This document shows positions 31,812 to 57,654 of a DNA stretch of 64,000 bases, one piece after another (the first letter of the stretch is position 1; each line of letters begins with the position of its first letter). The stretch is from Proteiniborus sp. MB09-C3 (GTDB lineage Bacteria; Bacillota; Clostridia; Tissierellales; Proteiniboraceae): NCBI RefSeq assembly GCF_030263895.1, contig NZ_CP127161.1, positions 1,178,001 to 1,242,000 on the forward strand, given 5' to 3'. The position numbers and the translations under genes are program-made. The notes beneath the pieces were generated by a model. It did not search any database, was not told the origin of the DNA, and saw nothing but the letters and a program-made list of their open reading frames with translations.

Positions 31812-33134
31812 ATGGCAAGTATAGAACACAGAGGTGGAAAGAGTTACAGAGCTTCCTTTTATCATAAAGGAAACAGAGCTACTAAGGTATTCGAGGCAAA
31901 GGATGAGAAAGATGCAAAACTAAAAGCAGCAGTCATGGAAGTTAGATTTAGAGAAACAGGTAGTGTAGATGGAGAAACAAAGGCTGATAAAGAGGGTTTA
32001 CTGGTAGCTGACTTAGCACAGGAATACATGAACATTAAAACAAGGGGAGATGACCCAATAAAAGAGAAGACTAGACAGAAATATCAAGACCTATTAGATA
32101 ACTATATACTTCCATATTGGAAAGGACGTATAGCAAACTCAATTACACCTTTTGAGGTAGAAAAGTTTAAACAGTTTCTATGTACACCAGAGGCAAGAGT
32201 AAATAAAAATAAGAAAGAACCATTTGCTAAGAGTACAATATCAGAGATATATAAGCTGTTTGCTTACATGATGAATAAAGCTGAAATATGGGAATTCATA
32301 GATAAGAACCCCTGTAGAAAGATAGAAATGCCTAAAGTACCAAAGAGGGAGAAAATATATTATAGACCTGAAGAAATAACGGAGTTGCTAAGTTTAATCA
32401 AAAGGGATACTCAATTAGAGTTAGCTAGGACAGAGCTAATGAAGGAACAGACTAATTTTAAACCATTCACGGTACAGAAAAAAATAATAACAGCATTGAA
32501 AAATCAATTGGTAATAAACATTGCAATTAAAACTGGGTCAAGACGTGGAGCAATTGCAGCATTGAGAAGAGGTGATATTAATCTAACAGATAAGTATATT
32601 ACATTTAGTAGGCAGGTAGTGTATACACCAGGTAAAGGAACATATTTAGAAGAAGGATTAAAGACACAGGATAAGAACACAGTATTTATCAATGACAGTT
32701 TAGTTGAGATGATAGAGAGATACTATGTAGAGCTTGATAAATTGTTTGAACTATCAGATGGAAAAATACCGAAGACTGATTTGTTATTTATGAAAATGAG
32801 TGATACACAGAAATACAAAGCAGGTGATTTATTAAATCCAGATAATATCAGTAGTGAATTTAAACGGTATATTAAAAGGAAAGGCTTAAGGGAGATACCA
32901 TTTCATAAACTTAGGAGTACAAATATAACCTATCTTGCAAATAGTGGGGTAGATTTAGTAACTGTATCTGAATTAGCTGGACATAGTGATACTTCTGTAA
33001 CTAAGGACTATTATGTGGCAAGTTATGATTCGTCAAAAGTGGATGCAGCTAACAAGTTCAATACAATAGATGAAATGGTTAAGAACTATGGTAAGGAAGA
33101 TAACTCAAGTGGTTTATTAGAAGAAAGACTATAG
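31812..33134 (+). CDS. int: Tyrosine-type phage integrase
   Basis: The protein (440 residues) would integrate and excise the prophage by site-specific recombination. It begins with an AP2-like arm-binding domain (MASIEHRGGKSYRASFYHKG). A SAM-like core-binding domain follows (about residues 60-170, VADLAQEYMNIKTRGD). The catalytic domain has R at about 243 (TGSRRGAI), H-x-L-R at about 365-368 (HKLRSTN), H at about 391 (AGHSDTS) and the Tyr nucleophile near 400 (KDYYVA). All are present, so it should be active. TAAGGAGG precedes ATG 31812. Confidence 0.92.
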   Translation: MASIEHRGGKSYRASFYHKGNRATKVFEAKDEKDAKLKAAVMEVRFRETGSVDGETKADKEGLLVADLAQEYMNIKTRGDDPIKEKTRQKYQDLLDNYILPYWKGRIANSITPFEVEKFKQFLCTPEARVNKNKKEPFAKSTISEIYKLFAYMMNKAEIWEFIDKNPCRKIEMPKVPKREKIYYRPEEITELLSLIKRDTQLELARTELMKEQTNFKPFTVQKKIITALKNQLVINIAIKTGSRRGAIAALRRGDINLTDKYITFSRQVVYTPGKGTYLEEGLKTQDKNTVFINDSLVEMIERYYVELDKLFELSDGKIPKTDLLFMKMSDTQKYKAGDLLNPDNISSEFKRYIKRKGLREIPFHKLRSTNITYLANSGVDLVTVSELAGHSDTSVTKDYYVASYDSSKVDAANKFNTIDEMVKNYGKEDNSSGLLEERL

Positions 33135-34360: not shown

Positions 34361-34429
34361 AGAAAATTAAAGATTGAAATAATTGTTTAGTTGTGATAAA
34401 ATTATACGTTGACGAAGGAGACTGATAAA

Positions 34430-35356
34430 ATGGAATTATTAGACTTTAGATATGAATGTGAAGACGCTTTAGAATTTAGTAAAAAATTAGAGGATAACTC
34501 TGTTAAATTGATTATAACATCACCACCATATAATATAGGAAAAGAATATGAAACGAAAACAAGTATAGAAGAATATATATCAAATATGGAACCAATGATA
34601 GCTGAATTTGTTAGAATACTCAGAGAAGATGGTAGTATATGCTGGCAAGTAGGAAATTACGTAGATAACGGAGAAGTGTTCCCATTAGATATATACTTCT
34701 ACATGATGTTTAAGAAACATGGCTTGAAATTAAGGAATAGAATCATCTGGCATTTTGGTCATGGACTACATTGCACTAATAGGTTTAGCGGAAGATATGA
34801 AACAATACTATGGTTTACTAAGAGTGATGACTACACGTTTAACTTAGATGACGTAAGAGTTCCAGCTAAATACCCAGGTAAGAGATATTACAAAGGAGAT
34901 AAAAAAGGACAAGTTAGTGGAAATCCAAAAGGAAAGAACCCTGAGGACGTATGGGAAATGACATTAGATAGATTATATGATGACTGGGAGAAGTTAGTTT
35001 GGAATATACCAAATGTTAAGGCTAACCATGTAGAGAAAGTGGATCACCCTTGTCAATTTCCAATAGAACTTGTAGAGCGTTGTGTTTTAGCAATGACAAA
35101 TGAGAATGACATAGTATATGACCCCTTTGCAGGTGTTGGTTCTACATTACTTGGAGCATTGAAGAATAACAGAGTTGCATATGGAACAGAACTTGAGCAG
35201 AAATACATTGACACTGGTTTATCCAGAATAGACCAATTAAAACAAGGCACCTTAAAGACTAGACCTATATATAAAGAAATTCATAAGCCGAAACCGACGG
35301 ATAAGGTTGCTCAGATACCAGAGGAGTGGAAGGATGAAAATAGCACAGGTATATAG
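34430..35356 (+). CDS. DNA methyltransferase of a restriction-modification pair
   Basis: The 308-residue enzyme has the catalytic S-P-P-Y at residues 31-34 (ITSPPYNIGKEY) near the N-terminus. The AdoMet site DPFAGVGSTLLGA lies at about residue 230, and E-L-E-Q-K-Y-I follows. This order is the beta class, which modifies exocyclic amines (N4-cytosine or N6-adenine). ATG 34430 is preferred with AAGGAGA upstream. It overlaps the BglII-like nuclease gene by 23 bases, so it should protect that nuclease's site. With SPPY, N4-methylcytosine is likely but not certain. Confidence 0.85.
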   Translation: MELLDFRYECEDALEFSKKLEDNSVKLIITSPPYNIGKEYETKTSIEEYISNMEPMIAEFVRILREDGSICWQVGNYVDNGEVFPLDIYFYMMFKKHGLKLRNRIIWHFGHGLHCTNRFSGRYETILWFTKSDDYTFNLDDVRVPAKYPGKRYYKGDKKGQVSGNPKGKNPEDVWEMTLDRLYDDWEKLVWNIPNVKANHVEKVDHPCQFPIELVERCVLAMTNENDIVYDPFAGVGSTLLGALKNNRVAYGTELEQKYIDTGLSRIDQLKQGTLKTRPIYKEIHKPKPTDKVAQIPEEWKDENSTGI

Positions 35357-35948
35357 TCATTTGAATGGACTTGAGTTTTTAATGGTACACAAGCCTCAAT
35401 TATGGGAAGAAATAAAACAGGCAATAGAGGCTGTTGATGCTTCTTTAGTTATGGATAAGATAAGCAAAGAGAAAACTATGGTAGGCAGAAAGTTATATAG
35501 TCCATCTGGTTTAAATAAGTTATTCAAAGCAGAGTTTAAACAGAGAGATTGGGAAGAGGTCAGAGTACCATATTGTGTAAACGAGGATTTAGATACTACA
35601 AGACAGATTGCCAACATTTTAGATAGAAACGAGCAAAGAAAGATTATAGAAGAGAATGGGTTTAGAAGTTTCAATACATATAATCAAATTGACTTCGTTA
35701 AGGATAGAGTAGCAATCGAGATACAATTTGGTAAGTACTTTTCAGTTCAATATGACTTACACGTAAAGCATACTTTCTTCTATGGTATAGGAGATATAGA
35801 CGTAGGAATTGAAATAATACCAAATCATAATCTTATGAGTCAAATGTCTACAGGTGTAGCTTGGTACGAGAACGAGCTAATGAATATAGTTCGTGAGGGT
35901 AGGTCAAATCCATCAGTGCCAATTATACTTATAGGTATAGAACCTTGA
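35334..35948 (+). CDS. Type II restriction endonuclease, BglII/BstYI-like
   Basis: The 204-residue protein has the motif IDFVKDRVAIEIQF. D120, E129 and Q131 match BglII D84, E93 and Q95 with identical spacing. Other family-like segments are PQLWEEIKQAIEAV and YSPSGLNKLFKAEF. BglII cuts AGATCT and BstYI cuts RGATCY, so a GATC-centred target is probable; the exact specificity cannot be read. It begins inside the methyltransferase gene, so modification is translated first. It is the last gene before the Tn7-like region. Confidence 0.85.
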   Translation: MKIAQVYSHLNGLEFLMVHKPQLWEEIKQAIEAVDASLVMDKISKEKTMVGRKLYSPSGLNKLFKAEFKQRDWEEVRVPYCVNEDLDTTRQIANILDRNEQRKIIEENGFRSFNTYNQIDFVKDRVAIEIQFGKYFSVQYDLHVKHTFFYGIGDIDVGIEIIPNHNLMSQMSTGVAWYENELMNIVREGRSNPSVPIILIGIEP

Positions 35949-36134
35949 GAAATAAATATGAACATTTGGAGTTAAAAATAAGGATTTTTGAAAAACTACC
36001 CATAGATCTCACATTTTTAAAGTGTGTAGAAAAAAATTAAGAAATTGAGAAGTGTTGAAAGCATTGATATGGCTGGTTTGTAGAAGTTATATTAATGAAA
36101 AAATAATTTGATACCACAGTTCTCAAAGAGATAG
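35949..36134 (+). other. Spacer between prophage-type genes and the Tn7-like region
   Basis: No gene, no clear tRNA or terminator is seen. The prophage right end and attR may lie between about 33.5 kb and here. I could not find a core repeat because the other prophage end is outside the window. Confidence 0.4.
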
Positions 36135-36139: not shown

Positions 36140-36599
36140 TGTCGACATACACAAAAGTATGTTTACAATTACAAAGATTGTTCACGAAAGATACAGAGCG
36201 TCAGACTGGGAAACCAGCCTGGCGTTTTTTAGTTGTGTAAAACCAGATCCTCCCGCCTCAAACATTTCCGAAATCCCAAAACCCTATTTCCCCGCAGCCT
36301 AGTAAAATCAATATATATAAAAATATAAATAAATACCCCCCTATGCATATCGCACTTACATCTCATATAATTGTTCCTATTTTTCCACGAGCAAACTTTG
36401 TCATTCTTCACTGCTCATGAGCAAACTCGCTTGTCATTTTCTCATTTTTTATCTCTTTTTTTCTATTTTTTAAGTAAATGCAACCCACGAACAAACTTTG
36501 TCACTTAAAGTAACTTATGGGCGATAGGGCTTGCAACCACTCGCTTACCAGCCGAGCAAACATTGTCAGTGGATGAGCAAACTCGCGTGTAACTGGACA
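36140..36599 (+). mobile_element. 460-bp mini-element, copy 1
   Basis: The left terminus TGTCGACATACAC and the inverted right terminus TGTCCAGTTACAC agree at 17 of their first 24 positions. A second left site lies at 36169-36186 (TTACAAAGATTGTTCACG). On the right are five TnsB-like motifs pointing inwards, at 36388, 36418, 36488, 36553 and 36574 (minus-strand consensus TGACAA-x-GTTTGCTCG). A terminator (36199-36230) lies inside the left end. Start and stop agree with a terminal TGT...ACA. No gene is present; the 60-codon minus-strand frame inside is not supported. Confidence 0.8.
36199..36230 (+). terminator. Terminator inside the mini-element left end
   Basis: CGTCAGACTGG and CCAGCCTGGCG form a stem with a GAAA loop followed by TTTTTT. 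It would stop transcription entering from outside. The second mini-element has the same structure at about 57040-57071. Confidence 0.75.
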
Positions 36600-36782
36600 T
36601 AGTAGAAAAAATAAAAAGCATAAAAATAAAGTAAGATTCTGAAGAAATATTCCAATACCTGTTCTTTTGTATTTAGAAAAATTAATTGAACTAGTTAAAA
36701 TTTAATAAATACTATATATTGAAAACTTTTATGTTCTGCGTTAACATCACATCCAAGAAGTATGAAAGAAAGGAAGATTTAT

Positions 36783-37604
36783 ATGGCAAAAAGAGATACT
36801 ACTTGGACTGTGGCTAAGTATAAAAGGTTTTTGTCTGAAAATCGTGGTGGTGGTGAGTTATCCTCGTATAGGCCTTGGCTTTCAATACAAGACTTTCCGT
36901 CAAAAGGCAGAGTATCACGTGTAAAAGGCTGGAAGACAAATAGAATACATCATTTCTTTTCAGATATACAAACGAGATGTTTTTATATGTTTGAATGGAA
37001 TGATGAAGTATTAGATATTAGAGAGCATTATCCACTTTTAGATTTAGTAGAGGTAGTGAAAGAGGATAAAGACCTTAAATAAGATTTTTTTACTAATGAA
37101 GAGCCTCCATATATCCTTACTACTACATTTATACTTACTTTAAGAAATCATAAATATGTTGCAAGGACAGTAAAATCATCAAGTGAGTTAGAGAAAAAGT
37201 CTGTATTAGAAAGATTGGAAATAGAAAGGCGATACTGGACAGCAAAAGAAATTGATTTTGGAATAATTACTCAAAAAGAAATACCAATTAAAATGGTAAA
37301 AAATATAGAGTGGGTACATCAAAGTTTATATACTTTTGAAGAAAGAGGTTTAACAAAAAGTTTATTGGAGAATTATTGTACCATTCTAATTAATAAATTT
37401 AGAGACAGTAATTATTCAATAAGGAAAATAACTTCAGATTTTGATAAAGAAAATAATGTATCAGATGGCACAGGACTATACATATTTAAATACCTTCTAG
37501 CATCTAAATTTATAACTATTGAAATGAATGAATCAATAGATATAACAAAAAGTAATCCAAAAATAGTTATTGATTGGGGTGCAAGATATGCTTCGAATCA
37601 ATAG
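36783..37604 (+). pseudogene. tnsA: TnsA-like transposase endonuclease subunit, nonsense-interrupted
   Basis: In Tn7, TnsA nicks the 5' ends and gives cut-and-paste transposition. ATG 36783 follows AAGGAAG. The frame is closed by TAA at 37080-37082 (codon 100) and then continues in the same frame to 37604, for 273 codons in all, so one base change (for example CAA to TAA) explains it. Typical segments are SSYRPWLSIQDFPSKGR, KGWKTNRIHHFFSD, DIREHYPLL and LEIERRYW. Aligned with Tn7 TnsA, E63 is Q63, D114 is T115 and K132 is retained (K131). It may therefore have lost nuclease activity even before the stop arose. Confidence 0.85.
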
Positions 37605-39651
37605 TGTGATTTTATTTGAAACAAGTCAGGGTAAAAGATATGAACGAATTCTATACCGTTACAAGGATATTATTTACCTAATTGATATTTACGATAATTC
37701 AATGCCTACTGCAGTTCCAGAATCCTTTATTCGGAATGGGTTGAATGATGGGACAATACTTGTTTTGGAAAATGAACCATATATGATAATCAAAGATGAA
37801 GAGGATATTCTCCCTAAACATAAAGCCATAAGAGATAAGGCTTATAATGCCATTAAAAATATTGTTATATTTGAGCCTGATATATACATCTCTGATAAGA
37901 GAGTTAAACTTGTCAGAGAATATGTTGATAATATCCACGAAGCAACAGTTATGAGATATCTAAAGCGGTTTTGGCAGAGAGGTATGCATAAAAACTCCTT
38001 ACTACCTGACTATTATAAATGTGGGAAGACACAAGGTGATAAAGTAATCAATAATACTTTTATTATTACCCCAGAAACGGTAAAAATTTTCAATGCTGCT
38101 CTTAATAGATTTTATTATAATTCATCACAGAAGACATTGACATTAACCTATGAACTTATGATTAAGGAATACTTTAGTGAAAATGGAATAGTAAATGATG
38201 AAATTCCTACCCTAAGACAATTTAGATATTGGTTTAATAAGGAAAGAAATATCAAAAAGGAAGTATCGACTAGACAAAGTGCAAAGCGATATGAATTACA
38301 ACATAGGGGACTTACAGGATCTGCTACTGAAGAAGCCTTTGGTCCGGGAGCAATATTTCAAATAGATGCAACTGTGGGGGATGTGTATTTAGTGTCCCAA
38401 TATAATGGAAATTGGATTATAGGAAGACCAGTTATATATACTGTTATGGATGTATTTTCACGTTGTGTAGTAGGAATTAATATATCTTTGGAAGGACCAA
38501 GTTGGATTGGAGCAAGTATCGCCTTAATTAATGCTGCTACTGATAAAGTGTCATTTTGCAGGAAGTACAATATAGAGATTAATAATGATGAGTGGAATTA
38601 TTGTAGTACCTTACCTGAAGCAATTGTGGCAGATAGAGGAGAATTGGAAGGTGAAAATATAGAGTCCTTAATATCAGCATTTGGAATAAGGGTCCTAAAT
38701 ACTAGCCCATATAGAGGCGATATGAAAGGAATTATCGAAAGGTATTTTGATACACTAAACCAACATACTAAGCCATTTTTACCCGGAGCAATCAAAAGCC
38801 AATACCGTGAAAGAGGAGAACAAGATTATAGACTCTCAGCAACTCTTGATTTGAAACAGTTTACTCAAATTATAATTAAATGTGTATTGTATCATAACAA
38901 TCATCACTATTTAAAAAATTATACCAGAAGTGAAGATATGATTGCAGACGGAGTGGAGCCCATACCCAAGTTAATCTGGGAGTGGGGCATTGCTAATCGA
39001 ACAGGACGGTTAAGAACAGTCAATGAAGATTTATTGAAACTAAATCTACTACCAAATGACAAAGCAACTGTAACGCAGCACGGGATAAAATTTAAAGGTA
39101 TGCTCTTTGGTTCTAAAATTTCAGTAAAAGAACGATGGTTTGAGAAGGCTAGAAACAATGGGGCTTGGAAAGTTGACATATCATATGATCCACGAGATAT
39201 GAGTTATATTTATATTAAGTACGAAGATGGTAGAAAGTTCGATAAGTGTTTTTTACTAGAACATCAGTCAAGATATAGGGAAAAATCTATCGAAGAAATA
39301 ACCTATCTACTAGAATATGAAAAGATGCAGGCTAAAGCCTCAAAGAAGATAGAACTGCAAAATAAGATTAATCTATTAGAAGATATAGAGAATATTATAG
39401 AGCAGGCAAAAGATGATACTAAAAATGAAGTTGAAGAAGGTATAAGTAAAAAGAGGCGTATTCAAAATATTAGAGATAATCGTAATTTTGAGAAGCAACA
39501 GGAGAGGAAACAAAATATTATCGAAATAAGACCAGAAGAGACTAAGATAGTAGTTGAAGAAAAGTCTTATGGTGATACAGAGCAAGATATGGTTGAATTA
39601 CTGTTAAAAGTGCAGAAGGAGGGGAAAGACCGTGCAGGATTTGATACATAA
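37588..39651 (+). CDS. tnsB: TnsB-like DDE transposase
   Basis: TnsB binds the element ends and joins 3' ends to target DNA. The frame could begin at 37570, but ATG 37588 (inside the end of tnsA) is more likely. The 687-residue protein has an N-terminal HTH region. The RNase H-like core has D260 (IFQIDATVGD), D349 (IVADRGELEG) and E384 (DMKGIIERYF), giving the D-D-35-E spacing. The C-terminus is Lys/Glu-rich and helical, as in regions that bind TnsC. It is the only tns gene with no visible defect. It overlaps tnsC. Confidence 0.92.
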   Translation: MLRINSVILFETSQGKRYERILYRYKDIIYLIDIYDNSMPTAVPESFIRNGLNDGTILVLENEPYMIIKDEEDILPKHKAIRDKAYNAIKNIVIFEPDIYISDKRVKLVREYVDNIHEATVMRYLKRFWQRGMHKNSLLPDYYKCGKTQGDKVINNTFIITPETVKIFNAALNRFYYNSSQKTLTLTYELMIKEYFSENGIVNDEIPTLRQFRYWFNKERNIKKEVSTRQSAKRYELQHRGLTGSATEEAFGPGAIFQIDATVGDVYLVSQYNGNWIIGRPVIYTVMDVFSRCVVGINISLEGPSWIGASIALINAATDKVSFCRKYNIEINNDEWNYCSTLPEAIVADRGELEGENIESLISAFGIRVLNTSPYRGDMKGIIERYFDTLNQHTKPFLPGAIKSQYRERGEQDYRLSATLDLKQFTQIIIKCVLYHNNHHYLKNYTRSEDMIADGVEPIPKLIWEWGIANRTGRLRTVNEDLLKLNLLPNDKATVTQHGIKFKGMLFGSKISVKERWFEKARNNGAWKVDISYDPRDMSYIYIKYEDGRKFDKCFLLEHQSRYREKSIEEITYLLEYEKMQAKASKKIELQNKINLLEDIENIIEQAKDDTKNEVEEGISKKRRIQNIRDNRNFEKQQERKQNIIEIRPEETKIVVEEKSYGDTEQDMVELLLKVQKEGKDRAGFDT

Positions 39652-41018
39652 TGCAGAATATAAGGAACAGATTATTTCAGAATATAAAGGTAATCCATTT
39701 ATAGAAGCATTACCTGAGATTACATCGTCAAATGAAATAGTATCAAAGTTAGCATATTTTCCTCCCTATGATAAAGAGGAAAGACAATTAGATAGTCAAT
39801 ATAGAACTCATCTTGTTGGCCGTCTATATGATGTTTTTCAGCCTCTAATGATACATTTAGATTTGGAAAGCAGAATTAGTAGAGTTTTAAGGCAAGGATA
39901 TATAGGAAGAAATATATTGGATAAAGCCTATGTTTCAAACCATTATCGTAGCACTGCAGGCTCTTTCACACTTTTAGGAGTCTCAGGTATGGGGAAAACC
40001 ACTGTTGTAAATAGGATATTAACAAGGTATCCACAAGTTATTGTCCATAGCAAATATAAAGATAGAGAACTTTCAAGATATCAGGTAGTTTTCTTAAGAC
40101 TAGAATGCTCTTACGATGGAAGTATTAAAGGCTTATGTTTATCATTCTTTAATAAGGTTGACGAAGTATTAGGAACTGACTACTATTCAAGATTTGGCAG
40201 CGGTAAACTTTCAGTTGATAATATGCTTGTCGCTATGACTAATATTGCTAAAAATATTTCATTGGGACTTTTAGTAATTGATGAGATACAAAACCTTAGT
40301 AAATCCAAATCCGGAGAAGCCGATAGGATGTTGAACTTTTTTGTTAACTTAGTCAATACTATAGGATTGCCAGTATTGTTAATCGGGACTCCTGAGGCTA
40401 TGGGGGTATTACAAGGAAAGTTTAGACAGGCTAGGAGGGGCTCAGGGCAAGGAGATTTAGTATTTGAAAGGTTTAGATAATGATATGAACTTCAGATTAC
40501 TTATAAACGTAATATGGGGCTATCAATGGACTAAAAAACCTACTGTATTGACAGACGAACTGACAGATACTCTATATGATCAATCCCAAGGAATTATTGA
40601 TATAACAGTGAAACTTTATGACCTTGCTCAAACAAAGGCAATTTCAAGTGGGAAAGAGGCTCTTACTCCTGAATTAATAAAACAAGTGGCTAATGAAAGT
40701 TTAAGGTTAGTAAAGCCAATGTTAAATGCACTTCGTACAGGGAATGTAAGGGAGATAGCAAAATATCCTGACATATACACTGGAAATATTGATTTGAATT
40801 ATGAGGAGTCGCATAAAGATAAGTTTGTAATACCTACTATTAATAAACCATCTGTAGTAGAGAGTGATGAAAAGCCAGTAAAAATTAAAACAAAGAAGAT
40901 ACCTCCAAGTGAAGAAAATGATATTAGAGTTATTGTACAAAATGATGCAGGAGAAGGATTAACTACCTATGTGATATTAAAAAATTACGGATTAATTAAA
41001 GGGTTTGAGGTTGTATGA
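39632..41018 (+). pseudogene. tnsC: TnsC-like AAA+ ATPase, frameshifted
   Basis: TnsC is the ATP-dependent regulator linking target selection to TnsAB. GTG 39632 has AAGGAGGGG upstream. Walker A GVSGMGKT lies at residues 116-123 and Walker B LLVIDE at about 213-218. The frame fails at about 40471-40474: GAAAGGTTTAGAT gives a stop at 40478, whereas removal of one T continues as ERLDNDMNF in the frame that runs to 41018. The joined product would be about 460 residues. The stop overlaps the tniQ start (ATGA). Programmed frameshifting is possible but no stimulatory structure was recognised. Confidence 0.85.
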
Positions 41019-41164: not shown

Positions 41165-42655
41165 TTGAAGGGATGGAATATGTTTGCTGAAATTAAGCAG
41201 TATAAATTAAAAGGATTCAATAAGTCTCAAGTAAGTAGATTTCTTAATATTAACTACAAAACAGTAGATAAATACTGGAACATGTCTTATGAAGAATATG
41301 CAGAACTAAAGGAGGATGCTAAGAGTAGAAGTAAAAAGGTTGATAAATATATGGAGCTAATATTATCTTGGATAAAGGAATTTAGAGATATTTCAACTGC
41401 TCAAATATTTGATTGGCTTAGAGAAAGGTATGGTGAAGTGGATTTTAGTGATAGAACATTAAGACTTTATGTAAAAGATTTAAGAGAAAAACATGGACTG
41501 CCTAAAGTTCCTTGTGCAAGGCAGTACGAGGAGATTCCAGAGCTTCCAATGGGATATCAAGCACAAGTAGATTTAGGTCAAACTTGGTTATCCAAGCGTG
41601 ATGGCTCAAAAATTAAAGCATATTGTTTTGCAATGGTACTTTCTCATTCAAGATATAAATTTCTATGGTGGAGAGACAAGCCTTTTAATACCCTATCATT
41701 CATAGAAGCTCATAATAAAGCTTTCGAATACTTTGGAGGCATGCCAAAAGAAATAGTATATGACCAAGATAGGATTTTGGCAGTATCAGAAAACCATGGA
41801 GATATTATCTTCACTGAAATGTTTCAAAACTACATAAGTAGCATGAAATTTAAGACTAGGCTATGCAGAGCTTTTGACCCAGAAAGCAAAGGAAAAATAG
41901 AAGCAGTAGTCAAATATGCAAAATATAACTTTGCAAAGCATAGAGCCTTTATAGATATTGATTTACTAAATGAAGACTCATTTAAATGGTTAGATAGAAC
42001 TGGTAATGCTAAAGTACATGAAATAACAAGAAAGGTACCTAAAGAAGTGTTTACTCTGGAAAAGGAACACTTACAGAAAGTACCTAGCCTGTTTGAAAAT
42101 ATTCAACTTAATGATAGTTTAACCTATTCTGTCAGAAAAAACAATACCATATCATACAAACAGAATAGATATCAGGTTCCAAAAGGTACATATAGACCAG
42201 GTAAAGAAGTTAGGCTAATAATAAAAGATAATAAAATGAGTATAGTTGATTTAGATACTGAATTAGTTATTGCAACTCACAGTATCAGTAATCAAAAGGG
42301 CAAGCTAATTCAAATATATCATCCAGAAAGAGAAAAAAAGAAAACCAAAGATCAAATGTATGATAAAGCCTTTAAAGCTCTTGGAATGACAGATGAAGCA
42401 AAAGAGCTATTAGATAACATACGAAAAGAAAAAGAGAGATATTGTAGAGATCAGTTTGGATTAATAATATCAGTAGTAAAGGATTATGACGAAAAGCTAG
42501 TAGGACAAGCAGTAGAATACTGTGTAAAACGAAAGCTATTTAGTGCAGGAATGTTTAAAGATACACTAGAATATTTGAGTATAAAAAAGAAACAGGTTCA
42601 GAAAAGAAATATGATAAAGCAAATCTATCCATCTCTTCAAAGTACCAAGATGTAA
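41165..42655 (+). CDS. istA: IS21 transposase IstA
   Basis: The 496-residue protein has an N-terminal HTH (FNKSQVSRFLNINYKTVDKYW). The DDE core is D in YQAQVDLGQTW, D in EIVYDQDRILAV and E in PESKGKIEAVVKYAK. A C-terminal beta domain follows. TTG 41165 has GGGGAGG at a good distance; ATG 41180 is an alternative. IstA cleaves and joins the IS ends. No frameshift is seen, so this IS may be active. Confidence 0.92.
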   Translation: MKGWNMFAEIKQYKLKGFNKSQVSRFLNINYKTVDKYWNMSYEEYAELKEDAKSRSKKVDKYMELILSWIKEFRDISTAQIFDWLRERYGEVDFSDRTLRLYVKDLREKHGLPKVPCARQYEEIPELPMGYQAQVDLGQTWLSKRDGSKIKAYCFAMVLSHSRYKFLWWRDKPFNTLSFIEAHNKAFEYFGGMPKEIVYDQDRILAVSENHGDIIFTEMFQNYISSMKFKTRLCRAFDPESKGKIEAVVKYAKYNFAKHRAFIDIDLLNEDSFKWLDRTGNAKVHEITRKVPKEVFTLEKEHLQKVPSLFENIQLNDSLTYSVRKNNTISYKQNRYQVPKGTYRPGKEVRLIIKDNKMSIVDLDTELVIATHSISNQKGKLIQIYHPEREKKKTKDQMYDKAFKALGMTDEAKELLDNIRKEKERYCRDQFGLIISVVKDYDEKLVGQAVEYCVKRKLFSAGMFKDTLEYLSIKKKQVQKRNMIKQIYPSLQSTKM

Positions 42656-42713
42656 AACCAGAGATCAGAAACATTGATGAATATATAAATGCTTTGAAGG
42701 GAGATAAAAAGAC

Positions 42714-43457
42714 ATGGATAAACTAGAGCAAATTAAAGAACATGCAAAAGAACTTAGCCTGAATTACTTAAGAATTAACGCAGATAAAATTATTGAGGAA
42801 GCTGATTTAAACGATTACTCATATCAAGATATATTAATAAAAATACTTGAAAATGAAATAGAAATAAGAGATAAAAAAGCACAAGAAAGAAGATTAAAGA
42901 ATGCAGGATTTCCGGTAATAAAGAAAATAGAAGACTTTGACTTAGATTTTCAAAAATCTATAACAAAGAAACAGATAAATAGGCTATTAGAAATGGAGTG
43001 GATAGATAGGATGTATAATCTTATCTTCCTAGGCCCTCCAGGTGTAGGAAAGACGCATCTATCAATTTCATTAGGATATAAAGCAGTAGAATTAGGGTAT
43101 AAGGTTAGCTTTGTAACAATGGATAACCTGATGCACGTACTAAAAACACACGAAATATCAAGAAAGAGCAAAGGAAAAATGAATAGAATACTATCTTCAA
43201 GCCTTGTAATAATAGACGAACTAGGTTACCTTCCAATAACAAGAGAAGAAGCAAATCTATTTTTTCAGTTAGTATCGGCACTTCATGAACAGGCTTCAAT
43301 TATTATCACATCTAATAAAGGCTTAGAAGATTGGACAGAGCTATTAGGAGATCCTGCTTTAACAACAGCAGTATTAGACAGAATTACATACAGATGTGAG
43401 CTTTTTAGCATGTCTGGCAAGAGCTATAGACTAGAACACAGAAAGTCATTATTCTAA
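42714..43457 (+). CDS. istB: IS21 ATP-binding helper IstB
   Basis: The 247-residue AAA+ protein has Walker A FLGPPGVGKTH, Walker B LVIIDELGYLP and sensor-type SIIITSNKGLEDW. It forms an oligomer that presents target DNA to IstA. ATG 42714 follows GGAGATAAAA. The gene appears complete and ends about 70 bases before the right terminus. Confidence 0.93.
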   Translation: MDKLEQIKEHAKELSLNYLRINADKIIEEADLNDYSYQDILIKILENEIEIRDKKAQERRLKNAGFPVIKKIEDFDLDFQKSITKKQINRLLEMEWIDRMYNLIFLGPPGVGKTHLSISLGYKAVELGYKVSFVTMDNLMHVLKTHEISRKSKGKMNRILSSSLVIIDELGYLPITREEANLFFQLVSALHEQASIIITSNKGLEDWTELLGDPALTTAVLDRITYRCELFSMSGKSYRLEHRKSLF

Positions 43458-43525
43458 TGTTCAAACTGGGAAAAATTCAGTAAAATTATTTGCCGAAATT
43501 TCTCCAAAAACACTTGCCAGTAACA

Positions 43526-43530
43526 ACACC
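43526..43530 (+). repeat. IS21 target-site duplication, right
   Basis: ACACC, copy of 41033-41037; the tniQ frame resumes here as CC-A (Pro), Tyr, Gln. Confidence 0.85.
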
Positions 43531-44773
43531 ATATCAAGATGAAATACTATACAGTGTTTTTGCTAGATATCACGATAAAAGTCCAAATTTCAATGGTAGT
43601 GAAACTGCAAGGGATCTATTTAGTGTAAATCGTATAGTGTGTAGTCTGGAAATTCCAACACTATTGGCTAATTTGCTCCAAAATATGCCCTTAAACAGTC
43701 CTTTCGATGCAGACAGGCTAATAGTCGAACATACACTATTTCCGTTTTATGCAGCCTTTTTAAGCCTTAAGAATAAGAATATAATAAGACAGTATTTGTT
43801 ATATGGAGATGTTGAGATATATAATAAAATTACAAGTATTATAAACCCATTGGCTGAAAATAAATTCTTAAGATTTTGCTCAAAGTGCAATAAAGAGGAT
43901 TTGGATATATATGGCGAACTATATTGGCATAGGATTCATCAGGTAAGAGGTATTTATATTTGTCCCATTCATAAAACACCTATTTATGATAGTAATGTAT
44001 CATTTGAAGAGAATAAATATAAATATGTAGTAGCAACGGAGAAAAACTGTATTGTTGAAAGTGAAATTGCGTATGAGCCAAAGACCTATGAAAGATTACT
44101 GATTATTGCAGAGGATATGGACTGGATTTTAAATAATCCAGTTATTAATACTAATATTAAGGACCAATACTTAAATCAGTTGAAGATATTGGAGTATGCT
44201 ACAGTCAATGGAGGCCTACGCCAAAGAAATCTTATTGCTGACTTTGAGGCCTTTTGGGGTAATGAAGTACTTCAAATGACACAAAATACGATTACTAAAA
44301 CTAATAACTGTAATTGGCTTTTTAAGATGGGATGGAATAAAGCAACTATAGAAGATCCATTAAAGCATATATTACTTATGAGGTTTTTAAGTCTACCACC
44401 AGATGTGCTATTTAACCATAATATAGAGTATCTTCCTTTTGGTAAAGGACCATATCCTTGTTTAAATCCTGTCTGTGTACAGTATGAGAATGAAATAATT
44501 GAAAATGTAGAAATTAGGAATAGTTATAAAACTAAAAGTCCAATCGGATATTTTACCTGTCCAGAATGTGGTTTTTCTTATTTAAGACGTGGTCCAGATG
44601 AGAAAATAGAAGATAGATATAGGTATTCAAGGATTGTGGATTACGGGTATTACTGGAGAGAAGAATTAATGCGGTTATTAAAATATAATAGCGTGCCAAA
44701 GGTTGCAAAGATAATGGGGACAACCCATACTACTGTTTATGATTATATAAGAAGGTTAGGAGTTAGAAAGTAA

Positions 44774-47716: not shown

Positions 47717-47730
47717 GAGGAGTGATGATT

Positions 47731-48063
47731 ATGAAGACTATTGGTGAAAAAATTAAAGAGTTAAGAGAGTCTAAAGATTTAAGCGCGAAAGACCTCTGTG
47801 CTTTTATTGATATTAATACTTCAACTTACAGTAAATTAGAAAACGATAAAAAATCAATCGATGTTGAGGAACTTAAAAAACTTACAAATTTTTATGATGT
47901 GTCTGCAGATTATATATTAGGCACTAATGATATCCAAGAAGATATTGTTATGTATATGAAAAGAGATAAGAATTTAAATAATAGTGATATTGAAGAAGTT
48001 CAAATGATATTATCAATGATGGATGAAGCAATAACACTTCAAAATATGAGAGAACGAATCTAG
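47731..48063 (+). CDS. Xre-family repressor/antitoxin (110 aa)
   Basis: Residues 5-60 form a Cro/CI-type HTH (GEKIKELRESKDLSAKDLCA, NTSTYSKLENDKKSIDVEEL, LTNFYDVSADYILG). The C-terminal 45 residues are helical and acidic, probably for dimerisation or partner contact. ATG 47731 is preferred with GAGGAG 8 bases upstream. It leads a three-gene operon with an ImmA/IrrE protease and a PIN-like protein; Xre plus COG2856-type protease pairs are known toxin-antitoxin or phage-repressor controls. Confidence 0.85.
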   Translation: MKTIGEKIKELRESKDLSAKDLCAFIDINTSTYSKLENDKKSIDVEELKKLTNFYDVSADYILGTNDIQEDIVMYMKRDKNLNNSDIEEVQMILSMMDEAITLQNMRERI

Positions 48064-48072
48064 GAGGTTTTT

Positions 48073-48942
48073 ATGTTATCACCACAAGAGATAGAAAGAA
48101 TTGAGAAGAAGGCTGTTGAGCAGCGTAAGATATATGATTTAGGTGATGAATCTCCAATTGGGCTCAAAATATTTAGTTATATAGAAAATATTTTCGATTC
48201 GTATATATTACTTTATCCACTAAAGACGAGAAAAATTGCTGGATTTACGAGAAAGCAAGGAGAGACAATCCAAATCTTTGTAAATACAAGTTTTAATTTG
48301 AGTTTTCAGGTATTTGCTGCTGCGCATGAACTATATCATTTGATTGATTTAAAAGAAAAGAGAATAGATAAATTTATAGTTTGCAATGATGAAGATATTT
48401 CTGAAAGTATCGATGATAGTGGTTCAAGTATTGAAGAGATAAAGGCAAACTATTTCGCGGCTGCATTTTTAATGCCAAAAGTTGTAATAGAAAATAGATT
48501 TAGCAATCTTAAAAGTAAAAAGTGTTTAGAAGTAGATCTTGTTCTTGAAATTATGAAACTCCAATATGAATATGAAATTCCTTATAAAACAATCTTAAAA
48601 AGACTTAAAGAATTAAGAATAATAGGCAATGAAGAATTTCAAAAACTTAAGGACTATGATGAACAGATCTTAGAATATTGTAAGATGTTGGATGAAGAAA
48701 TGCGCAAGCGTGTTGATGAACTTGAGCATACCAACGGAAGGAAATATCATTCTTTAAATGTCCCCAAGATCGCTTATGATGTATATCGTAATAATATCAT
48801 TTCAATTAGCAAACTAGAAAGTATAGTTAATAAATATGATAAGACACTTGATGATTTTAAGGTTGTAAAGCCAGAAGTAAACACAATAAAAATAGACTTT
48901 TCGAATTTCGGGACAGGAGATGATAAAGATGAGGAAGATTAG
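48073..48942 (+). CDS. ImmA/IrrE-family metallopeptidase (289 aa)
   Basis: A zinc-protease helix HELYH (AAAHELYHLIDLKEK) lies at about residues 87-91. ETIQIFVNTSFNLSFQVFAA lies before it, and the family Glu and AAAFLMPK after it (residues about 120-137). The C-terminal half is helical (residues 160-230). Such proteins cleave or regulate the neighbouring Xre repressor. AGGAGG precedes ATG 48073, 9 bases after the xre stop, and the gene overlaps the next by 14 bases, so the three are coupled. Confidence 0.85.
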   Translation: MLSPQEIERIEKKAVEQRKIYDLGDESPIGLKIFSYIENIFDSYILLYPLKTRKIAGFTRKQGETIQIFVNTSFNLSFQVFAAAHELYHLIDLKEKRIDKFIVCNDEDISESIDDSGSSIEEIKANYFAAAFLMPKVVIENRFSNLKSKKCLEVDLVLEIMKLQYEYEIPYKTILKRLKELRIIGNEEFQKLKDYDEQILEYCKMLDEEMRKRVDELEHTNGRKYHSLNVPKIAYDVYRNNIISISKLESIVNKYDKTLDDFKVVKPEVNTIKIDFSNFGTGDDKDEED

Positions 48943-49786
48943 TTCTCCTGTCCTTTTTGATGCTAATATACTTATAAATTTTAAAGGACAGTTAAAATTC
49001 CTGTTCAGTTTTTTTGAAAATGTAATAATACATAGAAAAGTTTTTAATGAAATTGTTGGACAAGCACTTAAGGATGAGTTAATATCGGTATCAAATGTTT
49101 CTAATATTATTTATGTAGAAGACAATTTCCCGACCGATGAGGTTGGAAAGAAATTACTTGAAGAATGTGATAAAGAACTGAAAGATTCTTTTAATATAGA
49201 AGATTTAAAAGATCTGGGTGAATATAAAACTCTACTATACGCTAAATTTAATAATGTATTTATTCTTTCTTCACAAGATACAACAGTTTGGAGATTTGTT
49301 ACTGAATCAAAATACTTTAAAGGATTGAAATGTATAACAGTGCAAGACTTTGCCTATTTATTGTTTTTAAATGCCGAAAATAAAAGTGATAGAAAAATTG
49401 CTAGAAATCTTTACAAGGCTTTCGCCAGAGAAGAACATCCATTTGAATGTTTTAAAATATTTATGGAGCGAAATGATAATGAAATCCCGGTATTTATAGA
49501 ATTTGAAAATAATAGGATAAGTAATTTTCAACAATTGGTTCAGGGATATTTTAACTATTATGTAGATACATCGTATTGTGAAAGTAAAGAGGTAGAATAT
49601 GAGATATCCAATTTAGCAAGTAACAATACAGGAAATTGCTTAAGTTGTATTTACTCTAGGATTGATAAAAATAATGTAGATTATTCTATAAGAAAATGTT
49701 TGTTTGATTATTCATTAAATGATGAGCAATGCTCTGAAATTCGAGAAGGATTTTCTATGAGGATTAGAAATAGAATCAAAGAATAA
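48929..49786 (+). CDS. PIN-like domain protein with C-terminal Cys cluster (285 aa)
   Basis: Residues 1-145 have a PIN-like nuclease layout: VLFDANILINF (first Asp), DLGEYKTLLYAK (Glu), ILSSQDTTVWRFV (Asp) and KCITVQDFAYLL. Residues about 235-265 contain C-x2-C and two later Cys (GNCLSCIYS, KCLFDYSLNDEQC), probably a zinc site. PIN proteins are usually RNases. ATG 48929 is chosen over 48920 because GGAG then lies 9 bases upstream. Being last in an Xre/ImmA operon, it is a good candidate for the effector. The exact family is not recognised. Confidence 0.65.
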   Translation: MRKISSPVLFDANILINFKGQLKFLFSFFENVIIHRKVFNEIVGQALKDELISVSNVSNIIYVEDNFPTDEVGKKLLEECDKELKDSFNIEDLKDLGEYKTLLYAKFNNVFILSSQDTTVWRFVTESKYFKGLKCITVQDFAYLLFLNAENKSDRKIARNLYKAFAREEHPFECFKIFMERNDNEIPVFIEFENNRISNFQQLVQGYFNYYVDTSYCESKEVEYEISNLASNNTGNCLSCIYSRIDKNNVDYSIRKCLFDYSLNDEQCSEIREGFSMRIRNRIKE

Positions 49787-50324: not shown

Positions 50325-50372
50325 TATTTATATATAAGAATAATTGAATTAAAATTATGGATTCATTATTAC

Positions 50373-50583
50373 ACTATATATAATGTAGGAAAATTTTATT
50401 AATAGTAAAATCTAATATTATATTATTACAATAGATTTATTGTTCATTGCCAACATACACAAAAGTATGTTTACAATTACAAACTTTATTCACGAAAGAT
50501 ACAGAGCATCAGACTGGGAAACTAATTTAGTGCATTTTATTTTTGTAAAAGAACACTCTCCCGCTAGAAAGAAATCCAATATT
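50373..50583 (+). repeat. Diverged partial copy of a mini-element left end
   Basis: From TGCCAACATACACAAAAGTA at 50448 the sequence follows the mini-element left end as far as CTCCCGC (about 50567), with many changes, then diverges. The 75 bases before it match the bases before copy 2 (about 56900-56980), so the homology includes flanking DNA. No right end is present. Confidence 0.7.
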
Positions 50584-50637: not shown

Positions 50638-50808
50638 TGGCAAGAATTTACAATATCATATATAATTATAATAATAGATTTAGTCGATACCAAGTATAAA
50701 AGTATAACTATGTATCATTATGTTGTATTGGTCGCGTTAATTCGTCATTTTATTAGAACAAGATGTATTGAATGAATGCAATAAAGAAGTAAGGAGGGGT
50801 TGGGTAGG

Positions 50809-53800
50809 ATGGTACTAAGCAAATATGAAGTCGTAAGAATATTAAAGCCAGGAAATAACAGTTATTCAGAGGTATCTAAGATTAAGGATATATCCACAGA
50901 GAAACATTATGCTATGAAAATAATTAAGGGAATTAATACTCCTTTGTATAATGTAATTTTTGAAAGAGAAGTAGGGGCATTAACAAAATTAAGAATGTGT
51001 AGTAATATTGTCAGATTAGAACATTATGATATTCACAATGATGATAATTATGGAAAATGTGGACGAGTATTTCTAGAATATATTGAAGGGGAACAACTGC
51101 AAAAAATTGATGTTCTAGAATTAAATACTATTGAAAAAGTCAAAATTATAGAGCAATTGATAAGTGCTATTCAGATAGCACACGAAAATAATATAATACA
51201 TAGAGATATAAATCCTAAGAACATAATGATTACTCCAGATAAACAAGTTAAATTAATTGATTTTGGAATTAGTAAAATAAAAGATATGGTAAACTCTGAT
51301 ACATTATTTCAGTTTGCCACCAATAAATATGCTGCCCCAGAAGTCCATACTCATAGTGAGAATGCTACGGAAAAAAGTGATATATATTCATTAGGAGCAG
51401 TATTATATTTTATATTTACGGGAGAAGAGCCACCAATAGCAAATGAGTTTGAAGCAAAATTAGAAAAGACTGGTGGAATTGATATAGAATTTAAAGAAAT
51501 AATCAAAAAAATGGTAAAGTTATCGCCTGAGGATAGATACAATAATATTTTTGAAGTTAGAAAGGTATTAATAAAGTTATTTAATAGATTTACTAAGCAA
51601 AATAGAACTTATATCTTTTCAATTGATTCAAGTAAAATAGTACATATGAGAAATCTTTCTTTAGTTCCTAATAATGATAATTTTGCTGACATAATAGAAA
51701 ATTACATTAATGAAGATTTTTTGGAAGCCTATATATTTATTGAAAATGATGATAAAGAAGATAAAACAGAGGAGTTATATACGCTTTATGGTATTCACTA
51801 TTATTTTGAGTGTTATTATGATGATAAGAACCAGATATTCCGTATTACTAAAGTAGATAAGTTACAACCTTATAAAAGAGAGCATATTAAGAGAAAAGCA
51901 ATGTATGTTAATGGGGATGTTAAGTTTATTTTGAGTGGAAAAAGAATACCTTCTAATAATAATTTTGAATTAACAATTAGTACTAAAGATAGCAAAAAGG
52001 ACTTCTTATCTTCTTCTAATGTCAATAACGAATACACGAAGAAGTTTTTCGCGTGGCATAAATTACTGGATATAATGGAAATAGAATATAAGAAGAATGT
52101 TATTAGAGTAAACTATGATTCATTTAAAATAGAAGATAATGTTTGTGTTTTTTCTATTAATGAACAGGATTATTATTTACTTGATGAAAATAAGGATGAA
52201 ATTACATTTATATATGAAAATACGAAGGGCAAAAGAAATAAGGTTGTTGAGATAGGAAATCTAAAGAGTATTTATATTGATAATGAAAAATTCTATTTAA
52301 AATTAAATAATATAAATACAGGGTTGAAGTCAAAGTTACCTAAAAGTGGAGTTATATGTGAAGATTATAGAAGAAATCTTTCTTTGATTAATAGAGAAAA
52401 AAAGGCCTTAAATTCTTTTAATAATGAAGACTATGTAAGTCCCTCAAATTTAAAAAGCATCTTTTCTGGCATACAATCAGCAAGTTTTTTTAATGCACCT
52501 ACAGGAAGAGTTTATTTTAACGAATTACTAGATGGAACACAGAAAAAGGCAGTTACTAAAGCGTTAAATTCTCAAGATATATCACTTATACAAGGGCCAC
52601 CGGGTACAGGAAAAACTAATGTAATAATCGAGATTTTAAGACAAATACTTGAAATGAACAACCAAGGGCAAATATTTAAACAGAAAATTTTGCTAGTATC
52701 TCAAGCACACGCTGCTGTGGACAAGATGCTTGAAGATTTAGATCAAACTTCTAGTGATAATATAAAAGTTATTAGAATAGGAAGAGATGAAAATTTATCA
52801 GATACTGTTAGGGAGAAATATGCCGTAGATTATGCACAATCAAGATGGGTTAATAGAATTATTGACGGTAGTAATAATTTTGCACAAAATTTGTTATCAT
52901 CTTTAGAAGTTGATAAGGAAGAGTTCGATAAGTATTGTGAAGCGATTATGGAAACTAAGTTTTCTAAGGGAGAAGATGAAAAATCATATGAAAGTGCTAT
53001 GTCTTTTATAACATATTTCGAAGAAAAGTATAAAGAACTATTAGAGACAAAGGACTTCAAATCTCTTCAAATACAAAAAGATTGGGTAAATAGAATTGTT
53101 GGTAGAATGGATATTCAGCAGCACTTTATAAAAAATGCTGAGATTGTTTCAGGAACTTGTACAGGTGTTATATCCAATTATGTAATAAATGATATGGTAT
53201 TTGACTATGTAATAATCGATGAAGCAGCAAAAGCAACATTTCCAGAATTATTAATATCCATTATTAGAGCAAAAAAAATTATAATGGTTGGCGATCATAA
53301 GCAACTTCCACCAGTATTGGACGAAGAACTAATAAAGAATAGTAAGCAAACATTTATTGAGAGCAACTTAGATTTTAATACATTATATAATAGTATATTT
53401 ATGAAACTATTTGAACATCTTCCTAGTGAAAATAAGCAAGTGTTAAATACACAATATAGAATGCACCCCACTATTGGAACAATGATAAGTCAACTTTTTT
53501 ATGATAATCAAATTTTAAATGGAGTTTCAATAAAAGATAGAAAGCATAATATCAAGAAGTATATGGACTTAGCCATTGTTTGGCTAGATACCTCAAAGTC
53601 ACCAGATAGATTTGAGGAGAATATTTCAACTACGTATAGGAATTTGCTAGAGGCAAATATTGTAAAAGAACAATTAAAACTTATAAATAACAGTATAGAT
53701 AGTTCTGAGTATGATGTAGGGGTTATTACACCATACAGTGGGCAAAAGAATTTAATTCGTAATGAAATACAGCAAAATACCTATGATAACATAAATAGTA

Positions 53801-54105
53801 ATGTAGTAGTGAATTCAGTTGATGCTTTTCAGGGCGGTCAAAAGGATATAATAATTTATTCTACTGTCAGAAGCAGTGATAAACACAAAAATATTGGATT
53901 TCTAAAATCCGAAGAAAGATTAAATGTTGCATTTTCAAGAGCGAAAAGACTTTTAATAATAATTGGAGATGCTGAGTTTTTAAGTGATACAAGCATTAAT
54001 GACAACAAGTTTCCATTAATAATAAAATATATAAAGGAAAATCCGGAACATTGCAGGATCATTGATTATCTTTCTTTAAATGCAGACGGAAAGAGGGAGG
54101 TTTAA
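50809..54105 (+). CDS. Ser/Thr protein kinase fused to an SF1 (UPF1-like) helicase (1098 aa)
   Basis: ATG 50809 follows AAGGAGGGG. Residues 6-260 are a complete eukaryotic-type kinase: catalytic Lys at 37 (YAMKIIKG), HRDINPKN at 131-138, DFG at 151-153 and YAAPEVH as an APE-type loop end. Residues 270-570 are an unassigned, partly beta-rich linker. Residues about 575-1090 are an SF1B helicase: GPPGTGKT at about 596, Walker B DEAA at about 804, GDHKQLPP, QYRMHP at about 882, VDAFQGGQ and VAFSRAKR at about 1040. All key residues are present. A nucleic-acid translocase controlled by phosphorylation, in mobile cargo next to a toxin-like operon, suggests phage defence; this is inference. The next gene follows after 2 bases. 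Confidence 0.88.
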   Translation: MVLSKYEVVRILKPGNNSYSEVSKIKDISTEKHYAMKIIKGINTPLYNVIFEREVGALTKLRMCSNIVRLEHYDIHNDDNYGKCGRVFLEYIEGEQLQKIDVLELNTIEKVKIIEQLISAIQIAHENNIIHRDINPKNIMITPDKQVKLIDFGISKIKDMVNSDTLFQFATNKYAAPEVHTHSENATEKSDIYSLGAVLYFIFTGEEPPIANEFEAKLEKTGGIDIEFKEIIKKMVKLSPEDRYNNIFEVRKVLIKLFNRFTKQNRTYIFSIDSSKIVHMRNLSLVPNNDNFADIIENYINEDFLEAYIFIENDDKEDKTEELYTLYGIHYYFECYYDDKNQIFRITKVDKLQPYKREHIKRKAMYVNGDVKFILSGKRIPSNNNFELTISTKDSKKDFLSSSNVNNEYTKKFFAWHKLLDIMEIEYKKNVIRVNYDSFKIEDNVCVFSINEQDYYLLDENKDEITFIYENTKGKRNKVVEIGNLKSIYIDNEKFYLKLNNINTGLKSKLPKSGVICEDYRRNLSLINREKKALNSFNNEDYVSPSNLKSIFSGIQSASFFNAPTGRVYFNELLDGTQKKAVTKALNSQDISLIQGPPGTGKTNVIIEILRQILEMNNQGQIFKQKILLVSQAHAAVDKMLEDLDQTSSDNIKVIRIGRDENLSDTVREKYAVDYAQSRWVNRIIDGSNNFAQNLLSSLEVDKEEFDKYCEAIMETKFSKGEDEKSYESAMSFITYFEEKYKELLETKDFKSLQIQKDWVNRIVGRMDIQQHFIKNAEIVSGTCTGVISNYVINDMVFDYVIIDEAAKATFPELLISIIRAKKIIMVGDHKQLPPVLDEELIKNSKQTFIESNLDFNTLYNSIFMKLFEHLPSENKQVLNTQYRMHPTIGTMISQLFYDNQILNGVSIKDRKHNIKKYMDLAIVWLDTSKSPDRFEENISTTYRNLLEANIVKEQLKLINNSIDSSEYDVGVITPYSGQKNLIRNEIQQNTYDNINSNVVVNSVDAFQGGQKDIIIYSTVRSSDKHKNIGFLKSEERLNVAFSRAKRLLIIIGDAEFLSDTSINDNKFPLIIKYIKENPEHCRIIDYLSLNADGKREV

Positions 54106-54107
54106 AT

Positions 54108-56895: not shown

Positions 56896-56980
56896 ATACC
56901 CTATATATAATGTAGGAAAATTTTTATTAATGATAAAGATCTAATAATTGAAATTTGTTACAATAGATTTATTTGTTCAT

Positions 56981-57440
56981 TGTCGACATACACAAAAGTA
57001 TGTTTACAATTACAAAGATTGTTCACGAAAGATACAGAGCGTCAGACTGGGAAACCAGCCTGGCGTTTTTTAGTTGTGTAAAACCAGATCCTCCCGCCTC
57101 AAACATTTCCGAAATCCCAAAACCCTATTTTCCCGCAGCCTAATAAAATCAATATATATAAAAATATAAATAAATACCCCCCTATGCATATCGCACTTAC
57201 ATCTCATATAATTGTTCGTATTTTTCCACGAGCAAACTTTGTCATTCTTCACTGCTCACGAGCAAACTCGCTTGTCATTTTCTCATTTTTTATCTCTTTT
57301 TTTCTATTTTTTAAGTAAATGCAACCCACGAACAAACTTTGTCACTCAAAGTAACTTATGGGCGATAGGGCTTTCAACCACTCGCTTACCAGCCGAGCAA
57401 ACATTGTCAGTGGATGAGCAAACTCGTGTGTAACTGGATA
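56981..57440 (+). mobile_element. 460-bp mini-element, copy 2
   Basis: Same length and orientation as 36140-36599 and differs at 8 positions by my count, one of them in the terminal trinucleotide (GGATA here, GGACA in copy 1). It contains the same two left sites, the terminator (about 57040-57071) and five right-end motifs. Frames on either strand are not genes. AAAAG follows at 57441. Confidence 0.8.
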
Positions 57441-57445
57441 AAAAG
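57441..57445 (+). repeat. Target-site duplication, right of the Tn7-like region
   Basis: AAAAG, matching 36135-36139, directly follows the right end. Confidence 0.7.
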
Positions 57446-57453
57446 AGTTTAAA

Positions 57454-57484
57454 GCGTCAGAGGAAAACACCTCTGGCGTTTTTT
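57454..57484 (+). terminator. Host terminator upstream of glmS
   Basis: GCGTCAGAGG and CCTCTGGCG form the stem, with TTTTTT after it. It presumably ended the gene that lay upstream of glmS before insertion. The insertion lies 9 bases before the stem and leaves it intact. Confidence 0.85.
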
Positions 57485-57542
57485 GTAGAATTTTATATAA
57501 AAAAGGTTTATATAAAAAAATTAAAAGAATTTCGCTAAATTG

Positions 57543-57571: not shown

Positions 57572-57654
57572 ACTATTACTGTGTTTTAATTACTGATTCC
57601 CGATTATTTTAGGAGGTGAGGCTTATAGAATACGAGACGACAATTAAATATTAA

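Follow-up and report, generated by a model that had tools for sequence, protein, structure and literature searches.

The window analysed here is a 64,000-nucleotide stretch of the Proteiniborus sp. MB09-C3 genome (G000). A prophage spans positions 1-36114, beginning about 900 bp to the left of the window, and is inserted in the 3′ end of rpsI; it encodes a terminase, portal, tape measure, endolysin and tyrosine integrase (31812-33134), and at its right edge (34409-35948) a DNA methyltransferase and then a member of a type II restriction endonuclease family. Next to it, positions 36115-36134 (plus strand) carry the final 20 nt of the frame of rpsI (ribosomal protein S9), CACAGTTCTCAAAGAGATAG; this duplicate of the gene's end, 19-20 bp long, was left by the prophage. 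The intact rpsI is found at G000:C1:1176715-1177101, about 900 bp left of the window: the remainder of the gene lies 36 kb leftward of the element described below because the prophage later entered the rpsI 3′ end. Two unrelated kinds of element, a prophage and a Tn7-like element, thus use one spot at rpsI.

The Tn7-like element begins with a gene-free unit of 460 bp (unit 1, 36140-36599, plus strand) bounded by TGT...ACA; read directly, its first bases are TGTCGACA and its last TGGACA. The unit is made up of a left end (LE) of about 103 bp, an AT-rich middle and a right end (RE) of 217 bp, and the outer ~45 bp of LE and RE are related in inverted orientation. The LE (36140-36242, plus strand), defined by an nhmmer LE profile and an alignment with 23 other LEs, holds two TnsB-like sites: a clear one, with a single mismatch, at 36168-36189, and a terminal, more divergent one at 36145-36165, recognisable because relatives show TTACACACGAGTTTG at the same place. 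The RE (36383-36599, minus strand) holds five (minus-strand positions 36385-36403, 36415-36434, 36485-36503, 36550-36568 and 36574-36592), which come in two spacing flavours, ACAA-N-GTTTGYTC and ACAMGYGAGTTTGCTC. The initial annotation had described two left and five right sites of two flavours, unequal in number like those of Tn7 ends, and direct reading located every one of them. The predicted sites are far above chance: the window has 8 matches to ACAANGTTTGYTC at no more than one mismatch (0.72 expected; none of 100 shuffles reached 8), the second flavour occurs 4 times (0.00 expected), and all 12 matches of both flavours in the window scan fall inside the two copies of the unit. The built-in left-end terminator reported earlier is also there: an intrinsic terminator lies within the LE at 36196-36232 (plus strand; -19.1 kcal/mol, z -4.3) and runs into TTTTTT, and it is retained in other unit subtypes and in relatives at a second attachment site, recR. 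A search within the unit for inverted repeats that might form a recombinase site gave nothing convincing. With LE, terminator and RE, the unit has all the parts of a minimal Tn7-like transposon.

A second unit of the same kind, overlooked in the initial annotation, lies at 56981-57440 (unit 2, plus strand): it is again a 460-bp LE+RE unit, in direct orientation and 98.3% identical to unit 1, with ATA at its right terminus where unit 1 has ACA. Also overlooked was the decayed LE of a third unit (50448-50564, plus strand), whose RE is lost and which stands between the tns module and a second module of cargo genes. A search of the whole genome returned no unit matches beyond these three, all at the rpsI locus. 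Between units 1 and 2 lie tnsA, tnsB, tnsC, an IS21-like pair, tniQ and cargo. Outside the pair, the 5-bp target-site duplication AAAAG at 36135-36139 matches that at 57441-57445 (both plus strand); the inner flanks differ, with TAGTA after unit 1 and TTCAT before unit 2. The TAGTA opens the tns leader (36600-36761, plus strand), a junction shared with three relatives (G061, which is Tissierella pigra, G084 and G515a). The flank to the left of unit 2 (56897-56980, plus strand) is conserved and ends in TTGTTCAT; the left flank of the decayed internal unit (50370-50447, plus strand) has the same ending, matches it at 83%, and is also present in G056 and G061. Since units 1 and 2 are direct, their outer duplications are alike and their inner flanks are unlike, the 460 bp serve as the long terminal direct repeat that bounds a 21.3-kb TnsA-dead Tn7-like element, and the earlier description of a free-standing mini-element is not supported.

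The tns genes all lie on the plus strand. In tnsA (36762-37604), E63 is replaced by Q and D114 by T while K132 is kept, and a TAA interrupts the frame at 37080-37082. The DDE transposase gene tnsB (37588-39651) is followed by the AAA+ regulator tnsC (AAA_22/TniB; 39632-41018), which carries a frameshift near 40464-40480, and by the target selector tniQ/tnsD (43490-44773; PF06527 TniQ, 2.7e-15; PF15978 TnsD, 7.2e-54); TnsB matches Tn7 TnsB (7pik) at E 1e-105 with the D/D/E positions aligned. An IS21-like istA/istB pair (41165-43457, plus strand) sits between tnsC and tniQ and is absent in G061 and G084. In these two relatives the positions of the tnsA and tnsC disruptions are intact, with tnsC in a single frame; the tnsABC-tniQ set of T. 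pigra (WCA3-693-APC-4) is intact as a whole. Given the tnsA stop, the tnsC frameshift, the operon split by IS21 and the ATA right terminus of unit 2, the window's element is now probably immobile. The cargo on the tns side (47722-49786) comprises an XRE regulator, a peptidase of the ImmA/IrrE type and one further protein that matches no Pfam family. Beyond the decayed LE, 50800-55442 (plus strand) encodes a Ser/Thr kinase-SF1 helicase (AAA_11/AAA_12) fusion of 1101 aa and a 444-aa partner, the latter assigned to no known family. The same pair, with near-identical starts, is part of the T. pigra element (G061 C36:54020-58686) and may be a defence module that passes from species to species.

Insertion behind rpsI is not peculiar to this genome: the end of the gene (...QFSKR*) precedes an LE by a few bases past the stop in at least 13 other genomes (at least 14 with the window). 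At four of four empty rpsI sites (G001, G008, G016, G023) a terminator stands immediately behind the stop. In the window the native rpsI terminator is displaced to 57455-57487 (plus strand; -17.7 kcal/mol, z -5.5); the element parts rpsI from its own terminator, and the LE terminator plausibly replaces it. A lone unit in G096, a genome where no close tnsB was found, reads rpsI-TTGGT-[unit]-TTGGT, its 5-bp duplication being perfect. The glmS ribozyme of the downstream host gene (57643-57795, plus strand; RF00234, 103.5 bits) lies outside the element. As a target, glmS, suggested by the adjoining ribozyme, is rejected: in many genomes it is the rpsI stop that the LE adjoins, and what lies to the right changes from genome to genome (glmS here, the cwlD region elsewhere). 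The literature searched, itself of limited reach, gave no report of rpsI or recR attachment for Tn7-like elements, and no earlier account of rpsI/S9, MITE or long-terminal-repeat Tn7-like elements.

The order unit-tns-cargo-unit at rpsI recurs in T. pigra (G061), in G084 and in the complete genome G515. In these three further genomes a unit again lies about 160 bp upstream of tnsA, with the TAGTA junction; the link to tns loci proposed earlier is thereby borne out, TnsB being in addition a clear Tn7 homologue. A host repeat unrelated to tns is ruled out by the same unit standing beside tnsA in other genomes. Relatives of the unit in other genera are full-length and 90-92% identical, and the distal units share a preceding flank that ends in TTGTTCAT, with the exception of G515a (GTTCTT). 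Draft assemblies often break within the unit, as expected of a repeated sequence, and in G061 the outer duplications (ATAAT/ATAAT) were read from two contigs.

A second Tn7-like element with a dead TnsA is present in the genome of the window itself (G000b; G000:C1:725253-781469, 56 kb, at the 3′ end of recR). Its 461-bp direct repeats are 99% identical, with GATTT on both sides. The two repeats (at 725253 and 781009) differ mainly in their first ~8 bases, TGTGTATC against TGTCTCCA, and the outer tip instead matches that of a neighbouring older element, which suggests recombination or an exchange of end tips. More distant dead-TnsA elements (among them G000b and G515b, at recR) are unlike the window's element in sequence (46-53% TnsA identity), and the recR relatives are bounded by TGT...ACA direct repeats of 449-461 bp with an internal terminator and a conserved TAGTT at the junction where rpsI-site elements have TAGTA. 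On the donor side the flanks lengthen the inverted repeat, to CTA[TGT...ACA]TAG in the recR family and CAT[TGT...ACA]TAG in the rpsI family; this extension is possibly part of what TnsB recognises. Putative donor DNA flanked by two direct units, with one outer target-site duplication, is seen in the window, in G061 and in G000b. Insertions at one attachment site copy the same 5 bp and true tandems (RE]5 bp[LE) do exist, in G002 (RE]ATTGG[LE) and beside the G084 array, so matching outer duplications are not proof of a single event. Units 1 and 2 as two tandem simple insertions are rejected: the 5-bp duplicate expected between neighbours is missing, and donor-type flanks stand there instead.

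What the elements have in common is the state of TnsA. The G061 protein aligns with Tn7 TnsA over 205 residues (E 3e-33) and has Q at E63 and T at D114; across the clade D114 is replaced (by T, S or N) in 26 of 26 TnsA sequences and E63 is lost in most, mostly to Q, with K132 kept. Outgroup TnsA proteins (n = 8, 30-41% identity) retain both E63 and D114. The catalytic acids of TnsA are lost across the clade and, judged from the alignments, cutting is presumably lost with them. In a profile search, 9 of 9 dead-TnsA regions held full or nearly full LE+RE units of about 450-460 bp, in most cases arranged as direct repeats; the four controls with an intact TnsA gave no units beyond one weak partial match, a silence that is partly by construction as the profiles were built from dead-TnsA relatives. 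A model-free search for direct repeats found pairs flanking tnsA in the window, G000b, G016a, G515a and G515b, a pair away from tnsA in G016b and an array beside tnsA in G581, and no flanking pair in G462 or in the four intact-TnsA controls; it agrees with the profile search, although the numbers are small. In G016b, G462 and G581 there are units near tnsA and no clean flanking pair in the stretch examined. Studies of related systems describe what such a loss does: replicative transposition persists in TnsA active-site mutants (Benler et al., PMC8649781), and a TnsA active-site mutant integrates the whole donor backbone between duplicated mini-transposons (Vo et al., PMC8188705). By analogy, the layout of the window, with a putative donor backbone between two mini-transposon copies, matches the product of a TnsA mutant.

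We therefore consider it likely that a circular donor with one 460-bp unit integrates by replicative (cointegrate) Tn7-like transposition and that solo units arise from it by recombination; within this scheme we infer the circle, the cointegrate step, its resolution and the recognition of the target by TniQ. The mobile form would be a circle with the dead tnsA, tnsB, tnsC, tniQ, cargo and a single unit. TniQ would guide the complex to the 3′ end of rpsI, where TnsB would nick both ends of the unit and join them to the target. As TnsA cannot cut the other strands, the unit would be copied by replication, and the entire circle would land between two copies with one 5-bp duplication outside, the LE terminator taking over from the rpsI terminator that the insertion displaces. 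Homologous recombination between the units, or the action on them of the family's tyrosine recombinase, could later free the circle and leave a solo unit; recombination at units may, in addition, build up stacks of circles. The conservation of the inner flanks between genera (TAGTA; TTGTTCAT) is expected if the unit occupies one position in the donor. In 6 of 8 elements (the window, G061, G000b, G016a, G016b and G515b) each unit of a pair has the other as its nearest relative, which in sequence terms fits copying at each insertion followed by recombination in crowded arrays; gene conversion would yield a similar signal. G084 and G515a break a strict sister rule: their paired units are about 15% different and are not each other's closest relatives, so recombination or separate insertions are needed there too.

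Three other readings have to be weighed. First, the whole could be a composite transposon that moves as a block by its outermost ends (the LE of unit 1 and the RE of unit 2), with gene conversion keeping the units alike. The matching outer duplications in the window, G061 and G000b would suit such a block, and fused cargo modules could travel together in it; yet cut-and-paste of a block is not expected from a TnsA without its catalytic acids, the distance from LE to RE is far shorter in the internal pairs than in the outer one, and the sisterhood of the units needs gene conversion as an extra, all of which makes this account unlikely. Second, only solo units might transpose, circles recombining homologously into a resident unit afterwards in the manner of Campbell integration. 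The stacked modules of G515b fit recombination between different units, as do unit chimaeras such as the left-end tips of G000b and the dissimilar unit pair of G084. But the first unit must still arrive by transposition, which with a dead TnsA itself inserts the donor, so that as a complete explanation this is improbable, and entry by recombination is probably a secondary route and not the whole story. Third, it is very doubtful that the unit is an independent, non-autonomous, MITE-like mini-Tn7 mobilised in trans, with copies near tns genes by chance: the 460 bp do have both ends, terminal inverted repeats and no genes, and the lone G096 copy has perfect duplications without a close tnsB, but the dispersal implied by the earlier MITE comparison is not seen (few copies per genome, confined to arrays at the rpsI attachment site: three at one locus in G000, one in G096, four at a single locus in G515), moving just the unit by clean cut-and-paste would require an intact TnsA, and the unit-tnsA (TAGTA) and TTGTTCAT-unit junctions are kept across genera, so the placement of the unit belongs to the element. 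Isolated units like that of G096 are more simply read, by analogy with solo LTRs, as solo remnants.

Among the closest known systems, Tn7 and Tn7-like elements (Benler 2021, PMC8649781; Faure 2023, PMC10293859) likewise have TnsA, TnsB, TnsC and TniQ/TnsD homologues, TGT...ACA termini, several TnsB-like sites in unequal numbers per end, 5-bp duplications, insertion directly behind an essential gene and defence-type cargo; here, in contrast, the TnsA acids are lost, both ends are doubled as 460-bp direct LE+RE repeats, and attachment is at rpsI or recR. The VchCAST TnsA D90A mutant and the type V-K ShCAST (PMC8188705) share the predicted replicative product, a backbone between two mini-transposon copies. 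However, the first is an engineered mutant and the second is without TnsA, whereas the present clade has retained an inactive TnsA throughout; and CAST tns genes lie on a plasmid or inside the ends, whereas here the tns genes and the cargo would themselves form the "donor backbone". Eukaryotic KolobokP transposons (PMC9587614) also have long terminal direct repeats of ~450 bp with inverted repeats of their own, solo repeats and multimers, (LTDR-INT)n-LTDR; they differ in relying on an animal Kolobok DDD/E transposase and a homing endonuclease, with no site-specific Tn7-like machinery. Tn3-derived TIME and TIME-COMP elements (PMC13367494, PMC4133298) and IS26 translocatable units are alike in the cointegrate logic and in having short units that bound DNA in composite arrangements. 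Their machinery is of the Tn3 or IS6 type, however, with the transposase in trans or inside the flanking unit, and they are mostly plasmid-borne and without a fixed attachment site.

More broadly, and with somewhat less assurance than for the transposition step, we lean towards regarding the clade as integrative plasmids: a non-cutting TnsA would be kept, the 460-bp unit would serve for docking, a circle of tns genes and cargo would be inserted whole behind rpsI or recR, and solo units and stacked modules would be by-products. If true, natural Tn7-like elements have evolved towards site-specific integration of whole circles by losing TnsA cutting, an outcome otherwise familiar chiefly as an engineered or undesired product of CASTs. 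Such elements would offer ready-made machinery for inserting entire plasmids and suggest how cargo modules come to be stacked at a single safe site; rpsI and recR would join the known attachment genes, solo "mini-Tn7" sequences would be explained as footprints, and there would be a parallel to the unexplained long-terminal-direct-repeat design of KolobokP.

No free circle, plasmid or phage form was found; PLSDB held no match to the unit, and the TnsB matches there are below 60% identity. The window's own element has no actin-like segregation protein (ALP), replication gene or recombinase. Among its relatives, an ALP is encoded in six dead-TnsA regions (and in none of four controls), a D5-like helicase in the G061 element and a tyrosine recombinase of ~287 aa in most; neither of the latter two occurs in the controls. 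In G515b, units and modules are stacked (unit-module-unit-module-unit), and its three units separate an ALP module from the tns module; the decayed middle LE suggests that the window shares this stacked history. In G016, a unit-to-unit segment with an ALP gene and without tns genes (C1:311274-327631) lies beside a tns-bearing element and resembles a non-autonomous version of such a circle.
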